Of a stretch of DNA of 64,000 nt, positions 46,925-64,000 are shown piece after piece. The notes under the pieces are model-generated. The model saw only the letters and a program-made list of their open reading frames with translations, was not told the origin of the DNA and made no database searches. A program made the translations under genes and the position numbers. The first letter of the stretch is position 1, and each line of letters starts with the position of its first letter. Source of the DNA: Microbacterium rhizosphaerae (GTDB lineage Bacteria; Actinomycetota; Actinomycetes; Actinomycetales; Microbacteriaceae); assembly GCF_034120055.1 (NCBI RefSeq), contig NZ_CP139368.1, positions 682,001 to 746,000 on the forward strand, written 5' to 3'.

Positions 46925-47626
46925 ATGAGAGCGAGCGACCGCACGTACCGGGCGCTCCTCGACGAGATCCAGTCCGGCGCGCTCGCGCCGGGGACGGCGC
47001 TCGCCGAGGCCGAGCTCGCGACCCGGTTCGGGGTCAGTCGCACGCCGGTGCGCGAAGCGCTCGGACGCCTGGCCGCCGACGGCCTCGTGATCGAGGTGTC
47101 GCCCCGGCTGACCGTCGTGGCCGATCTCGCTCCGGACGACATCCGAGCGCTGTTCGAGCTGCGCCGGGCGCTCGAGGAGACGGCCGTCCGCATCGCCGCG
47201 ATGCGGGGGGATGCCTCTGCCTTCGCCACGCTGGCGGACGCGTTCGAGGCGACGGATGCCGCGTCCGGCCAGGGCATGGACGACTACTACGCCCTGATCG
47301 CCGACTTCGACGCGGAGGTGGATGCCGCGGCATCCAACGCGTATCTCGCCGCCGCCCTGCGGACCGTGCGCACGCACTTGGTCAGGGTGCGCAGACTCGC
47401 CCGTGACAAGCCGGCGCGGCTCGCCGCATCCGTCGCGGAGCACCGCCTCATTGCGCACGCGATCGCGACGCGCGACGCTGATCTCGCGGCCCATGCCACG
47501 CACGTGCACCTCCACAACGCCCTGGCGAGCATTCTGGACGGCACGCTGCTCGGCTCCGGCGACGCGGCCGGGGTCCACTCCACGAACCACACGCGACCGA
47601 CAGGCTCGAGAGAAGGAGCACCATGA
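46925..47626 (+). CDS. GntR/FCD family regulator of the prp operon
   Basis: 233-residue regulator. GntR winged helix at about 5-65: [27 protein letters not shown] ligand-binding domain follows, with [18 protein letters not shown] and [28 protein letters not shown], including metal-coordinating His residues. ATG at 46925 has GAGGGGGG upstream; a GTG six bases earlier is possible. It overlaps the prpD start (ATGA), so it is co-transcribed with the methylcitrate genes and probably responds to a propionate-pathway intermediate. Confidence 0.93.
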
Positions 47627-49179
47627 CCGTCACGCACCACCTCCGTGTGCACCGCAGCGACGAGAACCTCGCGCGCGAGGGACAGCTCGCGTGGGCGATC
47701 GCCCGCGTCGCCGCCGATCCGGTGGAGGTCGACTCCGACGTCGTCGACATGATCGTCAACCGCATCATCGACAACGCGGCGGTGGCCGCCGCATCCCTCA
47801 CCCGCGCACCGGTGAGCGCCGCGCGCCAGCAAGCGCTCGACCACCCGGTGTCGGTGGGCGGTGAGGGCTCGACGATCTTCGGGTGCGCGCTCGAGCGCCG
47901 CACGAGCCCGGAGTGGGCGGCGTGGGCGAACGGCGTCGCCGTGCGCGAGCTCGACTACCACGACACGTTCCTCGCCGCGGAGTACTCGCACCCCGGCGAC
48001 AACATCCCGCCGATCCTGGCGGTCGCCCAGCACGTCGGATGCGACGGCACCGCGCTCGTGCGCGGCATCGCGACGGGCTACGAGATCCAGATGGACCTCG
48101 TGCGCGCCATCAGTCTGCACAAGCACAAGATCGACCACGTGGCCCACCTCGGCCCGTCGGCCGCTGCCGGCATCGGCACGCTTCTCGGGCTCGACGTCGA
48201 GACGATCTACCAGGCGATCGGTCAGGCGCTGCACACGACCACCGCCACACGGCAGAGCCGCAAGGGCGAGATCTCGACGTGGAAGGCCTTCGCCCCCGCC
48301 TTCGCCGGCAAGATGGCCGTCGAGGCCGTCGACCGCGCGATGCGCGGCGAGACGAGCCCCTCGCCGATCTACGAAGGCGAGGACGGCGTCATCGCGTGGA
48401 TGCTCGACGGCCCGGACGCGTCGTACGACGTGCCGCTGCCCGGCGAGGGCGAGCCGAAGCGGGCGATCCTCGACTCGTACACGAAGGAGCACTCCGCCGA
48501 GTACCAGGCGCAGGCGTGGATCGACCTCGCCCGCAAGCTGCACAACGAGCGGCCCGAACTGAGGTCGGTCCCTGAGCCTGTCGAAGGGCAGGGACCGGGA
48601 TCCCAGATCGAGTCGATCGTGCTGCACACGAGCCACCACACGCACTACGTGATCGGCTCCGGAGCGGGCGACCCGCAGAAGTACGACCCGCACGCCTCGC
48701 GCGAGACGCTCGACCACTCGATCCCGTACATCTTCGCGGTCGCGCTCCAGGACGGCACGTGGCACCACGTCGACTCGTACCTGCCCGAGCGCGCCCAGCG
48801 CCCCGACACGGTCGAGCTCTGGAAGAAGATCACCACCGCCGAGGACGAGGAGTGGACGCGCCGCTACCACTCCGAGGACCCCGACGAGAAGGCGTTCGGC
48901 GGGCGCGTCGTCATCCGCTTCGCCGACGGCTCGGAGCTCGTCGACGAGATCGCCGTCGCCGACGCCCACCCGCTCGGCGCCCGCCCGTTCGCGCGGGAGG
49001 ATTACATCCGCAAGTTCCGCACGCTCGCCGAGCCCGTGCTGGAGCCCGCGGAGATCGAGCGGTTCCTCGAGCTCGTGCAGCGCCTCCCCGCACTGAGCCC
49101 CGACGAGGTGCGCGAGCTGTCGATCGTGGCGAAGCTCGGCGTGCTCGCCCTCGCCCCGGCCCCCAAGGGACTCTTCTGA
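47623..49179 (+). CDS. prpD: 2-methylcitrate dehydratase (MmgE/PrpD)
   Basis: 518-residue dehydratase of the propionate 2-methylcitrate cycle, converting 2-methylcitrate to cis-aconitate-type product. [24 protein letters not shown] carries the conserved catalytic region; [19 protein letters not shown] and [19 protein letters not shown] follow. Between ERPEL and IESI there is an insertion of about ten residues ([15 protein letters not shown]) encoded by a palindromic repeat at 48567-48596; the frame and flanks are intact, so the enzyme is probably active. Strong ribosome binding site AAGGAG. Confidence 0.94.
48567..48596 (+). repeat. Hairpin repeat (type A) inside prpD
   Basis: GGTCCCTGAGCCTGTCGAAGGG followed by CAGGGACC. 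Arms GGTCCCT and AGGG(ACC) flank the loop GAGCCTGTCGA. Read as [11 protein letters not shown] in frame. Same family as the 7 type A copies at 61202-61822. Confidence 0.85.
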
Positions 49180-54500: not shown

Positions 54501-57314
54501 GCGAACGGCGTGCCGGGCGGAGCGAACATGTCGTTCAGCGCCACCACCGGCAAGCAGGTGCTGTTCCGCTACACCCTGGCGACCCACATCCTGGAGATCA
54601 TCGTCACCGACCCGCCGCTGGCCGGACTCGGGGAGTCGCGTGCGCAGTGGATCGACGCATCCACCATCGCGTGGCCCGCCGATCTCGGATCGAAGGATGC
54701 CGCGGCCACGTGGCAGCTGTACGGCTCCGCCGACGCGAGCCTCGAGGTGAAGGACGGCGCCGTCACGGGCGGCGGCGACCCGATCGCCCTCACGAAGGTC
54801 GCCGGTGGCCTGACCGACGCGCAGAAGGCGAGGTTCCCGGCGCTCGCGGGGTACACGGCCCTGCACGTCGAGGGTCAGGACCGCGCTGGGGTCGCCACCC
54901 TGCTGAAGGGACAGCTGCGCGTCGCGCAGCGCGACGGCGCGGATGCGCTGAGCGCGTTCACCGGTGTGCAGATCCCCGGCGTCCTCGATGACCTGTATGC
55001 GAAGGCCGTCGGTGCGGTGCCCCTCGGCGTCGCCTTCCAGGGTGCGCAGCCCACGTTCCGCGTGTGGGCGCCGACGGCGCAGACGGCGACGCTGCTGACG
55101 TGGGACCCTTCGACGGGCTCAGGGACCGCCGCCGCCGGTGATCCCGTCCGTCGCGAGGCGACGTGGGATGCGGCATCCGGTGTCTGGACGGTCAAGGGCG
55201 GTGCTGCGCTCAAGGGCTCCGAGTTCCTGTGGGAGGTGAAGGTCTACGCCCCGACCACGGGCAGGATCGAGACGAACCGCGTCACCGACCCGTACTCCGT
55301 CGCGCTCACGACGAACTCGACGCGCTCGGTCGCCGTCGACCTCGACGACCAGAAGTGGCGGCCGGACCAGTGGCGCAAGACGGCGTCGCCGGTCGTGGCG
55401 AAGCCCGTGGACCACACCATCTACGAGCTGCACATCCGCGACTTCTCGATCTCGGACACGACGGTTCCTGCCGCCCTGCGCGGCACGTACTCGGCCTTCA
55501 CCCGAGACAGCGCGGGAACGAAGCACCTGCGCGAGCTCGCCGACGCCGGCATCAACACCGTGCACCTGCTGCCGTCGTTCGACCTCGCGACGATCCAGGA
55601 GGATCGCTCGAAGCAGAGCACCCCGGACTGCGACCTCACGACGATGGGGGCGGCATCCCCCGACCAGCAGGCGTGCGTGATGGCCCAGGCCGACACGGAC
55701 GGCTACAACTGGGGCTACGACCCGTTCCACTACTCGACTCCCGAGGGCTCGTACGCGGTGGACCCGAACGGTGGATCCCGCGTCTCGGAGTTCCGGCAGA
55801 TGGTCGGCGCGCTGCACGGCATGGGGCTGCAGGTCGTCCTCGACCAGGTCTTCAACCACACCACGGCCTCCGGCCAGGCCGACACCTCGGTGCTCGACCA
55901 GGTCGTGCCGGGCTACTACCAGCGGCTCAATGCGGCGGGGGCGGTCGAGACCTCGACCTGCTGCCAGAACGTCGCCACCGAGCACGCCGTCGCGCAGAAG
56001 CTCATGGTCGACTCGATCGTCACGTGGGCCAAGGAGTACAAGGTCGACGGCTTCCGGTTCGACCTCATGGGACACGCATCCAAGGCGAACATGCTGGCGA
56101 TCCGGTCGGCGCTCGACGCCCTGACCCTCAAGAAGGACGGCGTCGACGGCAAGGCCGTCTATCTGTACGGCGAGGGATGGAACTTCGGCGAGGTCGCGAA
56201 CAACGCGCTGTTCGAGCAGGCCACGCAAGGTCAGCTGGGCGGGACGGGCATCGGCACGTTCAACGACCGGCTCCGTGACGCGGTGCACGGCGGCAGCCCG
56301 GTCGACGGCGGATCCACGTTCGTGCAGGGCTTCGGCACCGGGCTGGCGACGGACCCGAACGGCGACGCGATCAACGGGTCGGGCGCCCAGCAGCTCGCGG
56401 CCCTCGGGCACGACACCGACCTCGTGAAGCTCGGCCTCGCCGGCAACCTGCGGTCGTACTCGTTCCTGACGTCGGACGGCACGGTGAAGCAGGGCTCGCA
56501 GATCGACTACAACGGCCAGGCCGCCGGTTACGCCGACCAGCCTGACGAGGTGATCAACTACGTCGACGCCCACGACAACGAGACGCTGTACGACCTGTCG
56601 GTGTTCAAGCTGCCGCGTGGCACGTCGATGGCCGACCGCGTGCGGATGAACACGCTGCAGCTGGCGACCGTCACGCTGTCGCAGACGCCGTCGTTCTGGC
56701 AGGCCGGCACGGAGCTCCTGCGCTCGAAGTCGCTCGACCGCAACAGCTACAACTCGGGCGACTGGTTCAACCGCATCGACTGGACCGGAAAGCAGAACAC
56801 GTTCGGCTCCGGTCTGCCGCCCGCCGCCGACAACAGCGGCAAATGGTCGATCATGGCGCCGCTGCTCGCCGACCCGACGCTGAAGCCGAAGGCGGCCGAC
56901 ATGGCCGCCGCCGACGCCGCCGCGATGGACCTGCTGAAGGTGCGCTCGCAGGTGGGCCTCCTGCGGCTCGGCTCCGCCGATCTGATCTCGCAGAAGGTGT
57001 CGTTCCCGAACGGCGGCGCGCAGGCGACGCCGGGAGTCCTCGTGATGCTCGTCGACGACGAGGCCGGTGCCGACGTCGACCCGGCGCTGGATGGCGCGCT
57101 CGTCGTCTTCAACGCGTCGCCCCAGGCGACCACGCAGACGATCGGCTCCCTCACCGGGCGCGACTTCCGGCTCGTCGCCGCCCAGGCGAACGGTTCGGAT
57201 GCGGTTGTGAGGACGACGACGTGGGACACCGCGACCGGTACGGTCACCGTCCCCGCTCGCAGCGTCGCGGTGCTCGTGCAGAAGGAGGCGCCGCTGCGGG
57301 GCAGCCTGCGCTGA
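51534..57314 (+). CDS. Secreted amylopullulanase with two GH13 catalytic domains
   Basis: 1926-residue extracellular enzyme for alpha-1,4 and alpha-1,6 glucan breakdown, ApuB-like. Signal peptide with a Sec-type ATAAAR cleavage site (about 37). X25/SusEF-like starch-binding modules at about 40-135, 828-925 and 928-1025. First GH13 (about 158-690): catalytic Asp in GFRIDTAKH (409), Glu in FFMFGEVYD (443), Asp in FLGNHDMGR (517). Pullulanase part: accessory and CBM48 modules (about 1030-1275), then second GH13: YNWGYDP, Asp in GFRFDLMGH (1505), Glu in YLYGEGWNF (1543), Asp in YVDAHDNETL (1675). No cell-wall anchor is seen. A palindromic repeat is translated within CBM48 (55103-55127). GTG start with AGGAG; LacI-type operators upstream. 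Confidence 0.95.
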   Translation: MSKTTRAWRALALSLTAALVAVGGIVAVTTPATAAARTFTLVGDLQSELGCASDWAPDCAQTALVSTDKPGIYAADFTVPAGTWNYKVAVNGTWDESYGLNGGGDNIPLTVAGPTQLRFEFDDNAHKVGVEVAPAALRAGYTSDDDALVAAPARQKGADQQFYFVMTDRFANGDTSNDTGGLTGDRMTTGFDPTDKGFYEGGDLAGLHSKLDYIQGLGTTAIWLTPSFKNKPVQGTGADASAGYHGYWITDFTQIDPHLGTNDELKSLIADAHARGIKVYFDIIVNHTADVISYAENQYSYIDQATKPYKDASGKAFDPADYAGGDTFPTMDPATSFPYTPVVSDAEKDIKVPSWLNDVTLYHNRGDSTYTGESTTYGDFSGLDDLMTENPKVVNGFADVYDTWIDTGIDGFRIDTAKHVNFEFWQKWTTKVLDYAHSHGKPDFFMFGEVYDADPVKLSPYVRKTDMNSVLDFTFQSSATSYASGNSAKGLRTLFAGDDHYTTSTTSATALPTFLGNHDMGRIGYFLRNTSQPLQRDLLAHDLMFLSRGQPVVYYGDEQGYAGADPGNDKSARQSLFPTQVAEYANQSLVDGTPLGTGAHYGTSTPEYTQIAALSALRKANPALQDGAQIERYAADGAGVYAFSRVDRSDKLEYLVALNNATTPQTVSLATLTAGAHYASIYGGGAALTTDGAAKTSVTVPALSAVVYKADRSVSAPDAASAVTISAPAAGAAMTGSAAVSATVDDAWRETSFAWRVVGSSDWHALGTSETTTPRVFHDVNTLAKGTLVEYRAVSTDAAGHRSAASTYASVGNAVNLGAADQPTAGYGSVSIPGDLDTEMGCAGDWQPDCAAAHLTKRADGIWAGTFDLPAGDYQYKVAIDDSWTLNFGANGVKDGPNISLHHPGGTVTFYFDPRSNQVQTTDDGPIVTLPGSFQAAIGCPGDWAPDCLASLMSDGDRDGVYEFSTDRIPTGAYEVKVAHNLGWDVNYGANGVPGGANMSFSATTGKQVLFRYTLATHILEIIVTDPPLAGLGESRAQWIDASTIAWPADLGSKDAAATWQLYGSADASLEVKDGAVTGGGDPIALTKVAGGLTDAQKARFPALAGYTALHVEGQDRAGVATLLKGQLRVAQRDGADALSAFTGVQIPGVLDDLYAKAVGAVPLGVAFQGAQPTFRVWAPTAQTATLLTWDPSTGSGTAAAGDPVRREATWDAASGVWTVKGGAALKGSEFLWEVKVYAPTTGRIETNRVTDPYSVALTTNSTRSVAVDLDDQKWRPDQWRKTASPVVAKPVDHTIYELHIRDFSISDTTVPAALRGTYSAFTRDSAGTKHLRELADAGINTVHLLPSFDLATIQEDRSKQSTPDCDLTTMGAASPDQQACVMAQADTDGYNWGYDPFHYSTPEGSYAVDPNGGSRVSEFRQMVGALHGMGLQVVLDQVFNHTTASGQADTSVLDQVVPGYYQRLNAAGAVETSTCCQNVATEHAVAQKLMVDSIVTWAKEYKVDGFRFDLMGHASKANMLAIRSALDALTLKKDGVDGKAVYLYGEGWNFGEVANNALFEQATQGQLGGTGIGTFNDRLRDAVHGGSPVDGGSTFVQGFGTGLATDPNGDAINGSGAQQLAALGHDTDLVKLGLAGNLRSYSFLTSDGTVKQGSQIDYNGQAAGYADQPDEVINYVDAHDNETLYDLSVFKLPRGTSMADRVRMNTLQLATVTLSQTPSFWQAGTELLRSKSLDRNSYNSGDWFNRIDWTGKQNTFGSGLPPAADNSGKWSIMAPLLADPTLKPKAADMAAADAAAMDLLKVRSQVGLLRLGSADLISQKVSFPNGGAQATPGVLVMLVDDEAGADVDPALDGALVVFNASPQATTQTIGSLTGRDFRLVAAQANGSDAVVRTTTWDTATGTVTVPARSVAVLVQKEAPLRGSLR
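55103..55127 (-). repeat. Hairpin repeat (type A variant) inside the amylopullulanase
   Basis: Minus strand: GGTCCCTGAGCCCGTCGAAG then GGTCC, arms CCCT/AGGG with loop GAGCCCGTCGA. It is read in frame as DPSTGSGT in the CBM48 region. Confidence 0.75.
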
Positions 57315-58237: not shown

Positions 58238-59014
58238 ATGACCGATTACGAGACGATCCTCATCGAGATCCGGGGGCGCGTGGGGTGGATCACGCTGAAC
58301 CGCCCCGAGGCGCTGAACGCACTGAACTCGCAGGTCATGGCCGACGTCGTCGATGCGGCGACCCGCTTCGACGCCGACGACGGCATCGGCGCGATCGTGG
58401 TGACCGGGTCGGAGCGGGCGTTCGCCGCCGGTGCCGACATCAAGGAGATGGAGTCCAAGAGCGGCCTCGACATGCTCATGGGTGACCATTTCGGCGGGTG
58501 GGCGCGGTTCGCTGCGGTCCGCACGCCGGTGATCGCGGCGGTGTCCGGCTACGCGCTGGGCGGTGGATGCGAGCTCGCGATGATGTGCGACATCATCCTT
58601 GCCGCCGACACGGCGAAGTTCGGGCAGCCCGAGATCAACCTCGGCGTGATCCCCGGCATGGGCGGCACACAGCGCCTCGTGCGGGCGGTCGGCTACTACA
58701 AGGCCGCGGAGCTCGTGCTCACCGGACGGCTGATGGATGCCTCGGAGGCCGAACGTGCCGGCCTCGTCTCGCGGGTGGTGCCGGCATCCGAACTGCTCGA
58801 GGAGGCCGGGAGGGTCGCCGACACGATCGCCGCGAAGTCGCTGCCGTCGCTCTACGCGGCGAAGGCGGCGATGGATGCGGCGCTGGAGACGACGCAGGCC
58901 GAGGGGCTGCGCTTCGAGCGGCAGGCGTTCGCCGCGCTGTTCGACACCGAGGACCAGAAGGAGGGCATGGCGGCCTTCCGTGAGAAGCGCGCGCCGGCCT
59001 TCGGCAATCACTGA
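58238..59014 (+). CDS. Enoyl-CoA hydratase
   Basis: 258-residue crotonase of the classic hydratase type. [13 protein letters not shown], oxyanion stretches [10 protein letters not shown] and [14 protein letters not shown], and both catalytic glutamates in [18 protein letters not shown]. The C-terminal [23 protein letters not shown] is typical. Fatty acid or amino acid beta-oxidation; neighbours etfB-etfA, on the same strand, would take the electrons of the matching acyl-CoA dehydrogenase. GGAGAAG ribosome binding site. Confidence 0.93.
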
Positions 59015-59081
59015 TACTCAGGTTCACGTATTCTGAGACTGAGGTTCAATCGCACGGCCCATGTCAGGCCCGAGAACCGTT

Positions 59082-59087
59082 TATAGA
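59082..59087 (+). promoter_or_regulatory. -10 hexamer TATAGA of etfBA
   Basis: TATAGA with a start near 59094, giving a short leader with GAAGGAG before the ATG at 59111. Upstream, CTCAGGTTCA and CTGAGGTTCA (59016-59048) form a near-direct repeat that could be an operator. Confidence 0.5.
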
Positions 59088-59110
59088 CTCGTCACGACGA
59101 AGGAGTGCTC

Positions 59111-59887
59111 ATGAGGATCGTCGTCCTGGTCAAGGAAGTGCCGGACACCTATGGTGACCGCAAGCTCGACCTCGAGACCGGTCTCGCCGACCGCGGGGCC
59201 AGTGAGACCGTGCTGGATGAGATCGGCGAGCGCGCCCTCGAGGTCGCGCTCTCGCACGCCGACGCGCATCCCGGGACCGAGGTCGTCGTGCTGTCGATGT
59301 CGCCGGAGTCGGCGGCCGCGACGGTCCGCAAGGGGCTCGCGATGGGCGCGGCGTCGGCGGTGCATGTGGTCGACGAGCGTCTGGCGGGCGCGGATCTGGG
59401 TCTGACGGCGGAGGTTCTCGCAGCGGCAGCCCAGCGCACGGGCTTCGACCTGATCCTGGCGGGCAACCAGTCGACCGACGGAACGGGCGGGGTGATCCCG
59501 GCGATGGTGGCGGAGGTGCTCGGCATCCCGCATGCGACGAGCCTGAACACCGTCGAGCTGACCGACACGGCAGTGGCGGGCGAGCGGGCGACGGATGGCG
59601 GCACGATGCGGGTGGAAGCGACGCTGCCGGCGATCATCTCGATCACCGAGCGCCTCCCCGATGCCCGGTTCCCGAACTTCAAGGGCATCATGGCCGCGAA
59701 GAAGAAGCCGTTCGAGACAGTGTCGCTGGACGACCTCGACATCGACCCGGACGACGCGTCGGCGGCGCGGTCGATCATGATCGCGATCGCCGAGAAGCCG
59801 CCGCGCGCGGCGGGCGTGAAGATCGTCGACGAGGGGGATGCCGGGCAGCAGCTGGCCGACTTCCTCGTGCAGAACCGGCTGGCGTGA
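59111..59887 (+). CDS. etfB: Electron transfer flavoprotein beta subunit
   Basis: 258-residue AMP-binding subunit of ETF, which passes electrons from acyl-CoA dehydrogenases to the quinone pool through ETF dehydrogenase. [19 protein letters not shown] at the start, [34 protein letters not shown], and the C-terminal [22 protein letters not shown] at 59111 with GAAGGAG upstream. etfA follows 13 bp later. Confidence 0.96.
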
Positions 59888-59900
59888 GAAGGGGATGACG

Positions 59901-60872
59901 ATGGCCTACGCAGACGACTCGATCCTGGTGCTCCTGGATGTCACCCCGACCGGTGAGCTCGCGAAGTCGACCGCCGGGCTGCTCGGCGCGGCGGCCTCGG
60001 TCGGTACGCCGGTCGCGTTGATCGCCGGCCCGCATGCGGCGTCGCTGGCCGGCGCCGCCGGCGAGCTCGGCGCCGCGCAGGTGCTGGTGGCGGAGGCGGA
60101 TGATTCGTCGCTGACCGTGCCGGCCGTGGACGCCCTGACCGCGGCGGCCGCGCTGGTGCGGCCGGACGCGGTGCTGGCGTCGCACTCGGTCGAGGGGCGT
60201 GAGATCGCGGGCCGGTTCGCCGCCCGCACCCGCTGCGCCCTTGCCGTGGACGCGGTCGGTGTCTCGCGGGACGCGGAGGGCGTGGTGGCGCATCACTCCG
60301 TCTACGGCGGCGCGTACAGCGTCGACTCCGCCGCGACCTTCGGCGCGCCCGTGATCACCGTCCGCCAGGGCGCGATCGACGACCGGGCCCAGGCGCGCAC
60401 CCCCGAGGTCGAGACTCTCGACGTCGAGGCTTCGGGCAGGGCCGCGGCATCCGTCTCCCACGTGCAGGCGGCCGAGGCGACGTCCTCCCGCCCGGAGCTG
60501 CGCGGAGCGGCCAAGGTCGTCTCCGGCGGGCGGGGACTCGGGTCGGGGGAGAAGTTCGAGCTCGTCGACCAGCTCGCCGACGTGCTCGGCGCGGCGGTGG
60601 GCGCGTCGCGGGCGGCGGTGGATGCGGGGTACGTCCCGCAGTCGTACCAGGTCGGGCAGACCGGTGTGTCCGTGTCGCCGCAGCTGTACATCGCGATCGG
60701 GATCTCGGGTGCGATCCAGCACCGGGCGGGGATGCAGACGGCCAAGACGATCGTCGCGATCAACAAGGACGGCGATGCCCCGATCTTCGACATCGCCGAC
60801 TTCGGCGTCGTGGGCGACCTGTTCACGGTCGTCCCGCAGCTGATCGAGGCGCTCAAGGCGCGGAAGGCCTGA
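59901..60872 (+). CDS. etfA: Electron transfer flavoprotein alpha subunit
   Basis: 323-residue FAD-binding subunit. The C-terminal FAD domain is unmistakable: [55 protein letters not shown] and [24 protein letters not shown] at 59901 preferred (AAGGGG spaced 7-8 nt); 59895 is possible. The following gene starts 4 bp after its stop. Confidence 0.96.
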
Positions 60873-60875
60873 GCG

Positions 60876-62894
60876 TTGGCGACGTTCGGAGCAGTGGTGC
60901 GCCGCGGTCTGCCGCGCACTCGCGGCGGCGAGCCCTGGCCCGCCGGCGGCGACGCCCCGCCCGCTGCCCCCGCTGCTCCGGTCGCCTCCCCGGCAACCCC
61001 GGTCGCCGCCCCCGCTGCTCCGGTCGCCGAGCTTGTCGAGGCGTCGTCCGCCGCCCCGGTCGCCGCCCCCGCCGCTCCGGTCGCCGAGCTTGTCGAGGCG
61101 TCGCCCGCCGCCCCCGCCGCCCCGGTCGCCGAGCTTGTCGAGGCGTCGTCCGTGCGTCGGGGTCTGCCGCGGGTGAAGGGTGGGGAGCCGTGGCCGCCCG
61201 CGGCCCTTCGACAGGCTCAGGGACCGGCTTCCGCCGCCGCCGTTACCCCGGTCGCCGAGCTTGTCGAGGCGTCGCCCGCCGAGCCCGCCGCCCCGGTCGC
61301 CGAGCTTGTCGAGGCGTCGCCCGCCGCCCCCGTTACCCCGGTCGCCGAGCTTGTCGAGGCGTCGTCCGCCGAGCCCGCCGCCCCCGTTATGCCGGTCGCC
61401 GAGCTTGTCGAGGCGTCGCCCGTGCGTCGGGGTCTGCCGCGGGTGAAGGGCGGGGAGCCGTGGCCGCCCGCGGCCCTTCGACAGGCTCAGGGACCGGGTT
61501 CCGCTGCCGCGGCCCTTCGACAGGCTCAGGGACCGGCTTCCGCCGCCCCCGTTACCCCGGTCGCCGAGCTTGTCGAGGCGTCGTCCGCCGGGCCCGCTAC
61601 CCCGGTCGCCGAGCTTGTCGAGGCGTCGTCCGTGCGTCGGGGTCTGCCGCGGGTGAAGGGTGGGGAGCCGTGGCCGCCCGCGGCCCTTCGACAGGCTCAG
61701 GGACCGGCTTCTGCTGCCGCGGCCCTTCGACAGGCTCAGGGACCGGGTTCTGGTGCCGCGGCCCTTCGACAGGCTCAGGGACCGGCTTCCGCTGCCCCGG
61801 CCCTTCGACAGGCTCAGGGACCGGCTTCCGCGGCCGCATCCACCCCCGCGGCGACCACTGCCCTCGCGGAGCCGACCGGCCCGCTCGAGCCCCTCCCATT
61901 CCCGCGGACGGTGTTCCCCGGTGCGGCGGCTCTCCGCTGGAACGCGGACCGCCGCACTCGCAAGGCCCCGATCGCCGCTCCCGAGCCGCAGCGCATCGGC
62001 CCGTTCACCCGCCTGCAGTGGGCGGGTGCCGTCATCGTCGGCGGCGCCGCGCTGCTGTTCGCCGCCGGTATGGCGGTGCTATTCGTGCGCTGGTTCCTGT
62101 CGCTGACGTTCATGCAGGACTTCCTGCACACCTACCCCGGCGCCTACCCGCTGCCGGCCACGGCGCCGGTCGGGTTCCCGGCATGGCTGAACTGGCAGCA
62201 CTTCTTCAACGTCTTCTTCATGGTGCTGATCATCCGCACCGGCCTGACGGTCCGGGGCGAGAAGCGCCCGAGCGTGTTCTGGTCGCCGAAGGGCAACCCG
62301 AAGCGCAAGATCAGCCTGACCCTGTGGTTCCACCAGTCGCTCGACCTGCTGTGGATCATCAACGGCGTCATCTTCATCGTGCTGCTGTTCGTCACCGGAC
62401 AGTGGATGCGGATCATCCCGACGTCCTGGACCGTGATCCCGAACGCGATCTCCGCGGCCCTGCAGTACGTGTCGCTGAACTGGCCGACCGAGGACGGCTG
62501 GGTCAACTACAACAGTCTGCAGCAGCTGGCGTACTTCGCCACCGTCTTCATCGCCGCCCCGCTCGCGATCGCCACCGGCGTGCGGATGTCCGGGGTGTGG
62601 CCGAAGAACGCGAAGCGCCTCAGCCAGGCCTACCCCGTCGAGTGGGCTCGGGCGGTGCACTTCCCGGTGATGCTCTACTTCGTGCTGTTCATCATCGTGC
62701 ACGTCGCGCTCGTCTTCGCGACCGGGGCACTGCGCAACCTGAACCACATGTACGCCGCCTCCGACGCCGTCAACTGGGTCGGGTTCTGGATCTTCGTCGC
62801 CTCCCTCGTCGTCATCGCCGCCGCCTGGGTCGCCGCCCGGCCGCTCGTCCTCGCCCCCATCGCGCGCCTGTTCGGCAAGGTCAGCGGCCGCTGA
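60876..62894 (+). CDS. Cytochrome-b-like membrane protein with repeat-built N-terminus
   Basis: 672-residue protein starting at TTG. Residues from about 360 on are a membrane domain with four to five helices and histidines placed for heme b ([57 protein letters not shown]). It matches the cytochrome b/b6 domain proteins of actinobacteria, probable electron-transfer anchors. The first 330 residues are low complexity: 9 units of PVAELVEAS, 7 of ALRQAQGP and 4 of VRRGLPRxxGGEPWP, all DNA-encoded by repeats at 60897-61822. It follows etfA by 4 bp. Its redox partner is unknown. Confidence 0.87.
60897..61676 (+). repeat. Four VRRGLPRxxGGEPWP modules
   Basis: 45-bp modules at 60897-60941, 61152-61196, 61422-61466 and 61632-61676. 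The last three are almost identical, with 270- and 210-bp spacing, implying segmental duplications. Confidence 0.85.
61022..61822 (+). repeat. Amplified hairpin-repeat array inside a CDS (types A and B)
   Basis: Type B, GGTCGCCGAGCTTGTCGAGG plus CGTC, at 61022, 61079, 61124, 61250, 61295, 61340, 61394, 61559 and 61604. Type A on the opposite strand (GGTCCCTGAGCCTGTCGAAG plus GGCC) at 61202, 61472, 61511, 61682, 61721, 61760 and 61799. Every copy is 24 bp. They share the loop GAGCYTGTCGA with stems CGCC/GGCG or CCCT/AGGG. All stay in frame. Confidence 0.9.
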
Positions 62895-62971
62895 CGCGGG
62901 GGGAGGCCCCCGGGGGATAACCGGAAGAGAACTGTCCGGATGCCTCAGGGGCGCGGTGGGATGCGCCGTCC

Positions 62972-62977
62972 TACCTT
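62972..62977 (+). promoter_or_regulatory. -10 hexamer TACCTT, leaderless-type
   Basis: Ends 6 nt before the ATG at 62984. Confidence 0.45.
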
Positions 62978-62983
62978 TGAGGC

Positions 62984-64000
62984 ATGACGACGACTCCTCA
63001 TCCCGCGGGCCCACTGCCTGCCGCCTCAGGGCGCATGGGCCCGACGGCCTCGGCGCCCGCCCGGTCCCGCATCGCGACGCCCGGGCGCATCGCCGGCTCA
63101 GCGCTCCAGCTCGCCGCGATGGGCGCCATCGGCTCCGCCTACTTCGGCATCATGTTCGCCGTGCTCGCGACAGGCATCGGCCTGCTGGTCGTGTTCGGCA
63201 TCGGCATCCTCCTGCTCATCGCCCTCGAGTACCTGCTGTTCGCACTCGGGTGGGTCGAGGTCGCGCGCGTCGAGGGGCTGTACGGATTCGGGCTGGCGCC
63301 GCGCCGGCCCCGCACGAGCGGGCGGCCCGGCTTCACCGGGTTCCTCCGCACGCTGTGGCTGCAATTCATCGACCTCTCGATGTGGCGCGCCGTCGCGAGC
63401 GCCGCGATCGCCACCGTGTTCGGTGTCATCGTCCTCGCCCAAGTGCGCAGCATCGCCGCGGGAATCTCGATGCTGTTCCTGCCGTTGACGGCCACATCGG
63501 ACCAGGTCGGCATCGGCGGCACGGGCATCAGCGTCCCCGTCGCCTGGGCCGTACCCGTCGGCATCGGCCAGATCATCATCGGCGTGGCGATCATCATCGG
63601 CCTGGCGTGGCTCGCCGGACTGCTGGCTCGTGTGATCCTCGTGCCGTCGCGCGAGGCGGTGCTCGCCGAGCAGGCCCGCACGTCGCAGGCCCAGCGCGCC
63701 GGAGCGGTGCGCGCGGCCGACGTGGAGCGCACCCGCATCGAGCGCGACCTGCACGACGGCGTCCAGCCGCGTCTCGTCTCGGTGGGGATGACTCTCGGGC
63801 TCGCGCAGCAGAAGATCGACGACGACCCCGAGGCGGCGAAGGCTCTCATCGCCGAGGCGCACACCTCGACCAAGGCCGCCATCACGGAGCTCCGGCAGCT
63901 GGCCCGCGGCATCCACACGTCCGTCCTGACCGATCGCGGACTCGACGCCGCGCTCTCCGCGCTCGCCGCGCGCTCGCCCGTGCCCGTCGTGCTCGACGTG
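62984..64000 (+). CDS. NarL-partner-type sensor histidine kinase (3' end outside window)
   Basis: The frame stays open to the right edge; 339 residues visible. N-terminal membrane region with helices at about 45-90 (YFGIMFAVLATGIGLLVVFGIGILLLIALEYLLFAL) and further segments around 145-170 and 190-220. The HisKA_3 phospho-acceptor ERDLHDGVQPRLVSVGMTLG is at about 255, followed by ELRQLARGIHTSVLTDRGLDAALSAL leading into the ATPase domain, which is cut. The partner regulator is probably beyond the window. The first 20 residues resemble the start-linked dispersed repeat. Confidence 0.9.
   Translation, partial: MTTTPHPAGPLPAASGRMGPTASAPARSRIATPGRIAGSALQLAAMGAIGSAYFGIMFAVLATGIGLLVVFGIGILLLIALEYLLFALGWVEVARVEGLYGFGLAPRRPRTSGRPGFTGFLRTLWLQFIDLSMWRAVASAAIATVFGVIVLAQVRSIAAGISMLFLPLTATSDQVGIGGTGISVPVAWAVPVGIGQIIIGVAIIIGLAWLAGLLARVILVPSREAVLAEQARTSQAQRAGAVRAADVERTRIERDLHDGVQPRLVSVGMTLGLAQQKIDDDPEAAKALIAEAHTSTKAAITELRQLARGIHTSVLTDRGLDAALSALAARSPVPVVLDV
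62996..63043 (+). repeat. Start-linked dispersed repeat, diverged copy 4
   Basis: Encodes PHPAGPLPAASGRMGP after the ATG at 62984; it matches the SGRxGP end of copies 1 and 3 but is shorter. Confidence 0.4.

Follow-up and report, generated by a model that had tools for sequence, protein, structure and literature searches.

The window analysed here is a stretch of 64,000 nucleotides of the genome of Microbacterium rhizosphaerae. Near its end lies a gene whose product is a membrane protein of the cytochrome b561 type; the long N-terminus of this protein is predicted to be disordered. This host gene is located directly downstream of etfB-etfA, and the features of this part of the window are as follows.

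59105..59887, + strand: etfB, electron transfer flavoprotein (ETF) beta, neighbour of the host gene
59901..60872, + strand: etfA, electron transfer flavoprotein alpha, neighbour of the host gene (start chosen by eye)
60876..62894, + strand: host gene (TTG start, 672 aa), membrane protein of the cytochrome b561 type, long N-terminus predicted to be disordered
62175..62735, + strand: membrane cytochrome domain, PF01292 match at aa 434-620, helices mostly confident in the AlphaFold2 model

The membrane part of the protein matched PF01292 (prokaryotic cytochrome b561) with 32 bits. This agrees with the cytochrome-b-like gene of the initial annotation, but only just, the gathering score being 30.1. 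In the AlphaFold2 model, 314 of the residues 1-347 have a pLDDT below 50, followed by a helical membrane domain that was modelled mostly with confidence. The linker region comprises about half of the protein and not its N-terminal third, as had been stated. A Foldseek search with the host model yielded no match with E ≤ 0.001; the cytochrome b of E. coli hydrogenase-1 was matched at E 3.4 (TMt 0.56). No match was obtained with the host protein in a sequence search of the PDB.

The host gene was matched in 56 of the 59 genomes of a genus sample and in all 52 of those of good quality. A C-terminal motif of EtfA was present upstream in 65 of the 66 loci that bear the host motif described below and offer enough DNA. 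This gene order may point to a functional tie of the host cytochrome to ETF. In the accessible parts of PMC8593149 and PMC13083937, EtfD is described as an ETF-linked membrane oxidoreductase of mycobacteria, hence as a membrane partner of EtfBA, and the gene studied here likewise places a membrane cytochrome downstream of etfBA. The functional parallel to EtfD is a guess based on gene order.

Sixteen perfect copies of a palindromic repeat are located at 61022-61822, nine on the + strand (type B, GGTCGCCGAGCTTGTCGAGGCG) and seven on the - strand (type A, GGTCCCTGAGCCTGTCGAAGGG). All of them are in the single reading frame of the 672-aa ORF 60876-62894, in which type B reads PVAELVEAS and type A reads LRQAQGP. 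In these points, namely, number, coordinates, orientation and a preserved frame with VAELVEAS and LRQAQGP, the initial annotation was confirmed. The region had also been described as almost wholly built from repeats, which was an overstatement: the 22-bp cores fill 352 of the 801 bp, and the remainder consists of spacers rich in GCC and of a host motif that is present three times. The whole array spans 267 residues. Its units and the host motifs, all repeat copies being perfect matches, are arranged as follows.

60897..60950, + strand: host motif 1
61022..61043, + strand: type B copy 1
61079..61100, + strand: type B copy 2
61124..61145, + strand: type B copy 3
61152..61205, + strand: host motif 2, flanked by B and A copies, its final 2 nt overlapping the A copy
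61204..61225, - strand: type A copy 1
61250..61271, + strand: type B copy 4
61295..61316, + strand: type B copy 5
61340..61361, + strand: type B copy 6
61394..61415, + strand: type B copy 7
61422..61475, + strand: host motif 3, B-motif-A as for motif 2, 1 of 54 nt different from motifs 2 and 4
61474..61495, - strand: type A copy 2
61513..61534, - strand: type A copy 3
61559..61580, + strand: type B copy 8
61604..61625, + strand: type B copy 9
61632..61685, + strand: host motif 4, B-motif-A as for motif 2
61684..61705, - strand: type A copy 4
61723..61744, - strand: type A copy 5
61762..61783, - strand: type A copy 6
61801..61822, - strand: type A copy 7

Host motifs 2-4 (54 nt each) thus each have a B copy on one side and an A copy on the other, and the resulting B-motif-A blocks are near-identical. 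The cores are identical throughout the 16 copies, and the spacers differ between the units.

The host motif, RRGLPRVxGGEPWPP, was studied in related loci. Of 97 relatives, 80 were kept in one search and 30 loci were added from another, so that the set of 110 orthologs (L031-L140) is incomplete. Six of them were duplicates and 34 contained no motif in the available DNA (four being truncated 5'), leaving 70 distinct N-termini. The motif was strongly conserved over 201 copies in these N-termini. Exactly three motifs were found in 55 of them, some others being cut, and the gene studied here has four. Its motifs are 85, 90 and 70 residues apart, with 85 residues from the last one to the domain; the 55 three-motif orthologs showed median distances of 88, 78 and 78 residues. 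The usual Microbacterium linkers between the motifs comprise about 80 residues and have a high content of Ala, Pro and Val. The start context of the host protein, ATFG-RRGLPR, lies upstream of the array and is conserved in the relatives. The motif is possibly a docking motif.

A genome-wide search for the repeats, as proposed in the initial annotation, was carried out with the 14-nt core YGAGCNTGTCGARG. It occurs at 134 sites of the 4.06-Mb genome, compared to 6 sites for the reversed control. The subsequent census covered 132 of the 134 sites, and 108 of these qualified as strict copies, deviating from a 22-bp consensus at no more than two positions outside the core; 92 of the strict copies are outside the array. 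Types A and B are variants of one dispersed family, designated REP1. They had been presented as two repeat types; two forms are indeed present, but they differ at only 5 of 22 positions, four of which constitute two compensatory stem pairs and one of which is a loop base. Apart from this loop base, the differences are the same kind of compensatory change as the stem covariation in the genome. Among the 92 copies outside the array, the core pair 0/12 was CG in 70, TA in 20 and otherwise in 2 copies, and the pair -2/14 was CG in 85, GC in 4 and otherwise in 3 copies.

An inner stem of 4 bp with an 11-nt loop is predicted for types A and B, with three more outer pairs in type A; the commonest genomic REP1 form is predicted to fold otherwise. 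As single-unit DNA hairpins were no more stable than shuffled sequences (z -1.36, 0.31 and -0.09), the case for a REP1 stem rests on covariation. The idea of a structured RNA was rejected: the region 59000-64000 gave no Rfam match at the gathering score and the array RNA folded no better than shuffles (z -0.43).

REP1 was frequently found inside genes. Of the 92 strict copies outside the array, 56 are within ORFs with a coding score above 60, as called by a home-made gene finder trained on this 64-kb window, and for 37 of these 56 the distance exceeds 40 aa to the called start and 20 aa to the stop. The claim that such palindromes are normally intergenic does not apply here; in this high-GC actinobacterium, such elements occur well beyond the intergenic regions. 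A Pfam scan covered 20 of the 42 REP1-bearing ORF calls and detected a domain in 19 of them. By domain content, the REP1-bearing genes include RecQ, MetH, Lhr, ThrRS, a Clp-type ATPase, peptidases M1 and M13 and MmgE/PrpD. The MmgE/PrpD gene lies in the window (47623-49176) and carries one in-frame copy at 48567-48588 that reads VPEPVEG. Its MmgE/PrpD match exceeds by 30 bp that of 21 of 28 other genomes, and in an alignment with 2 of 11 fetched relatives the copy is placed within a length-variable loop.

Further REP1 copies were noted in other contexts. A REP1-like element with one core mismatch, TGAGCCCGTCGAAG, is located on the - strand of the window at approx. 55106-55127. An ABC transporter ATPase (L193:2252-3271) has a VPEP-rich N-terminal stretch with three REP1 copies, its start being putative. 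In a MetH-type gene (L179) and an Lhr-type gene (L182), REP1 copies are followed by short repeated tails of the GSGTGA type, which look as though REP1 had seeded a microsatellite-like expansion.

Palindromes within genes are known from other bacteria, and the initial annotation was wrong in kind when it regarded an array of this type as not described. Di Nocera 2013 (PMC3733652), as far as its accessible sections go, reports intragenic GTAG/CGTC REPs that keep the frame of many genes, those of helicases and tRNA synthetases among them, with translated clusters encoding 43-82 aa, and its authors suggest that REPs are tolerated in linkers or loops. REP1 resembles these elements as a short palindrome that is in frame in many genes and translated in clusters. 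It differs from them in sequence and predicted shape. GTAG occurs within 12 nt of only 3 of the 108 strict copies, and CGTC is present at the 5' edge of 3 and at the 3' edge of 13 of the 108 (4 of the 92 outside the array). According to Table 1 of that paper, CGTC REPs have a stem of 8-9 bp and a loop of 4-5 bp, in contrast to the predicted 4-bp inner stem and 11-nt loop of types A and B. The main text of PMC3733652 contains no occurrence of "Microbacter-" or "Actinobact-".

Rickettsia palindromic elements (Ogata 2000, 2002) are translated in frame inside unrelated genes, as described in the available part of PMC10969869. REP1 is comparable to them in mode, being a palindrome in frame in unrelated conserved genes, but it is much shorter with about 22-27 bp compared to about 150 bp. 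The accessible parts of PMC10969869 and PMC3733652 hold no mention of tandem amplification in one linker. REPINs are dispersed palindromes, some of them inverted pairs, according to the portion of PMC3116915 at hand. REP1 shares with them the dispersal of a short palindrome and the conserved stem pairing. Neighbouring copies within 100 bp outside the array (n=31) include five +- pairs; unlike in REPINs, however, direct pairs (17 ++ and 9 --) outnumber inverted ones and many copies are intragenic. Four of the five +- pairs are 26-27 bp apart. By eye, the four inverted pairs with this distance (L190, L149, L179 and L183) have dissimilar spacers.

The Y1 transposase of RAYT type (PF01797) was not detected in the genome of M. 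rhizosphaerae, in a search whose control responded in 5 of 14 known genomes, and it was found in 1 of the 59 genomes of the genus sample. Membership of REP1 among the RAYT-driven REPs was rejected, since this transposase and the end tags are lacking. By these tests, REP1 falls outside the RAYT-linked, GTAG and CGTC families. It is also not a phylum-wide family, as the strict A-type pattern was present in 1 of 296 sampled genomes, that of M. rhizosphaerae itself. Within a family sample it occurred in 13 of 150 genomes (9 of 85 genera). An exact-sequence search of the literature for the REP1 core gave no result, and no account of amplified translated REPs in Microbacterium was found in the open literature, which is weak evidence. 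Intragenic REPs, translated clusters and in-frame Rickettsia palindromes are already known. What is unusual here is the size of the array, 16 REP1 copies over 267 residues compared to 43-82 residues in print, together with the recurrence of palindromes in one set of linkers.

The spacing of the copies provides information on how the array grew. Neighbouring copies of the same direction are spaced by a multiple of three in all 10 cases within the array and in all 8 within other genes; where copies lie outside genes or close to starts, this holds for 2 of 19. Arrays thus form inside and outside genes, and the reading frame filters the genic ones. Two clusters in DNA scoring as non-coding, one of nine copies (L153, G000:C1:1648650-1649170) and one of five (L155, 1736880-1737074), likewise have spacings that are mostly not divisible by three.

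Variable columns are distributed unevenly, with 0 of 44 in the cores and 10 of 40 in the short spacers (P=0.0003). This test was carried out with all four 23-bp B-B spacers and all four 17-bp A-A spacers; two longer B-B, two A-B and three motif-bearing spacers were left out, of which by eye the A-B (1 of 24 columns) and the motif-bearing spacers (2 of 58 columns) hardly vary. Plain duplication of whole units is not sufficient for uniform cores next to varied spacers, and the pattern suggests conversion or short template switching between the cores, or constraint on them.

The same pattern could also result from 16 separate insertions of REP1 into a hot spot, all the more as REP1 is numerous in the genome. 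Local amplification is supported by other properties of the array. It uses two frames (9 + 7 copies) and two forms, whereas all six frames are represented among the 56 copies in likely coding DNA elsewhere; the exact B form is nearly private to it, with one occurrence among the 92 copies outside; and its units resemble one another in their spacers and in the motif block, host motifs 2-4 being near-identical. Separate insertions are accordingly considered quite improbable, and multiplication in place is preferred.

In the linkers of the relatives, REP1 (at most 3 mismatches of 22) was found in 16 of the 70 N-termini including this gene, with 53 copies, 16 of them here. Codon-shuffled sequences of all 70 contained 0.1 copies on average, and a chance origin of the REP1 copies in the N-termini is excluded. 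A second palindrome, REP2 (at most 6 mismatches of 26), was present in 9 N-termini with 15 copies (shuffled 0.0); 24 of the 70, this gene included, contain either one or the other. Tandem repeats are prone to assembly errors, and it was therefore considered that the array is an artefact or, with a misjudged start, not translated. This is very hard to reconcile with palindrome copies in the same gene of other assemblies, with array units that are not identical in their spacers, with a genome of one contig that is 99.95% complete and with the motifs and the start upstream of the array being conserved.

In 29 genomes with the locus and a readable N-terminus, the linkers hold 24 REP1 cores, compared to 0.19 expected from whole-genome density, and 2 REP2 cores, compared to 0.14. 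The 24 cores are divided between M. rhizosphaerae (16) and three other genomes (8); the remaining 25 genomes have none, which counts against the explanation preferred below. Palindromes are not the sole source of linker repeats, as internal 16-mer repeats occurred in 33 of the 70 N-termini compared to 2.25 when shuffled. No linker was seen before and after insertion at the DNA level. A quick tree was built from the membrane domains of 69 of the 70 loci (one was too short). It requires at least 12 changes in REP1 presence (mean of 14.6 with shuffled labels) and at least 8 in REP2 presence (mean of 8.6). Since this hardly differs from shuffled labels, gains and losses are not exactly countable.

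The relatives compared do not share the array; no other strain of the same species was found. In the sister row L031 (SH-aLRT 94, unstarred), REP1 is absent and REP2 is present in five copies. The partial protein P0001 (94% identity over the membrane part) covers a single linker, the last one, in which no peptide of REP1 type occurs, and P0002 (91% identical) has a REP2-like peptide; the protein searches took in 120 of 2025 and 120 of 242 matches. An ordinary conserved linker, with which the initial annotation had contrasted its proposal, is ruled out among the relatives compared, given the REP2 copies of L031 and the last linker of P0001. The public protein of L031, P0003 from Microbacterium sp. 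ASV49, starts at an internal Met, and its ORF extends upstream through more motifs and REP2.

The codon phase of the copies was also compared. All 26 REP1 linker copies on the + strand (13 orthologs including this one) are in the same phase and encode peptides of the V-A-E-x-V-E-A type, and all 14 REP2 copies on the + strand share one phase; the 27 REP1 copies on the - strand are divided into 18 in one phase and 9 in another. The shared phases and the uniformity of the 16 cores would suit a functional repeat domain in which VAELVEAS and LRQAQGP are selected as peptides and the similarity to REP1 DNA is merely their origin. This explanation is rated as unlikely. The same linkers hold other peptides in other species (PSTSSGT, VERAERDET) or none of these, and the lack of a REP1-type peptide in the last linker of P0001 is also at odds with it. 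Moreover, the cores are free of synonymous differences as well, which selection on the peptide alone would not yield, and the shared phase may stem from base composition and from stop codons, one of which is present in one frame of the TGAG form.

Taken together, it is quite likely that REP1 copies entered tolerant linkers and then multiplied in place in steps of three, while the motifs, their spacing and the membrane domain were kept. REP1 is a palindromic element that is dispersed in this Microbacterium and in related species. Presumably by insertion, it would have entered the disordered linkers of the membrane cytochrome, which is putatively linked to ETF; in such linkers, in-frame inserts may do little harm. 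One founder per orientation, B and A, would have multiplied locally together with the intervening host motif, probably by slippage or unequal recombination between the repeats, and only steps divisible by three would have survived. Selection would have retained the membrane domain and the RRGLPR..GGEPWPP motifs at intervals of about 80 residues, while the linker sequence, presumably neutral, would have turned over between species. The initial proposal that repeats became protein sequence agrees with the data in that a dispersed palindrome was amplified in frame. A further, rather speculative possibility is that palindromes act as carriers that multiply the host motif: B-motif-A blocks might be copied as units, giving a disordered linker of the usual length plus extra working motifs, and linkers might be rebuilt throughout the genus from whichever palindrome is abundant.

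Intragenic palindromic elements of this kind matter for gene annotation. Beyond this, one gene in one genus offers a natural series in which dispersed palindromes become a disordered linker and short motifs and their spacing are kept. Many species and two element families are available, and the non-genic arrays of the same genome can serve to control for frame selection, so that it becomes directly testable how disordered regions originate and turn over.
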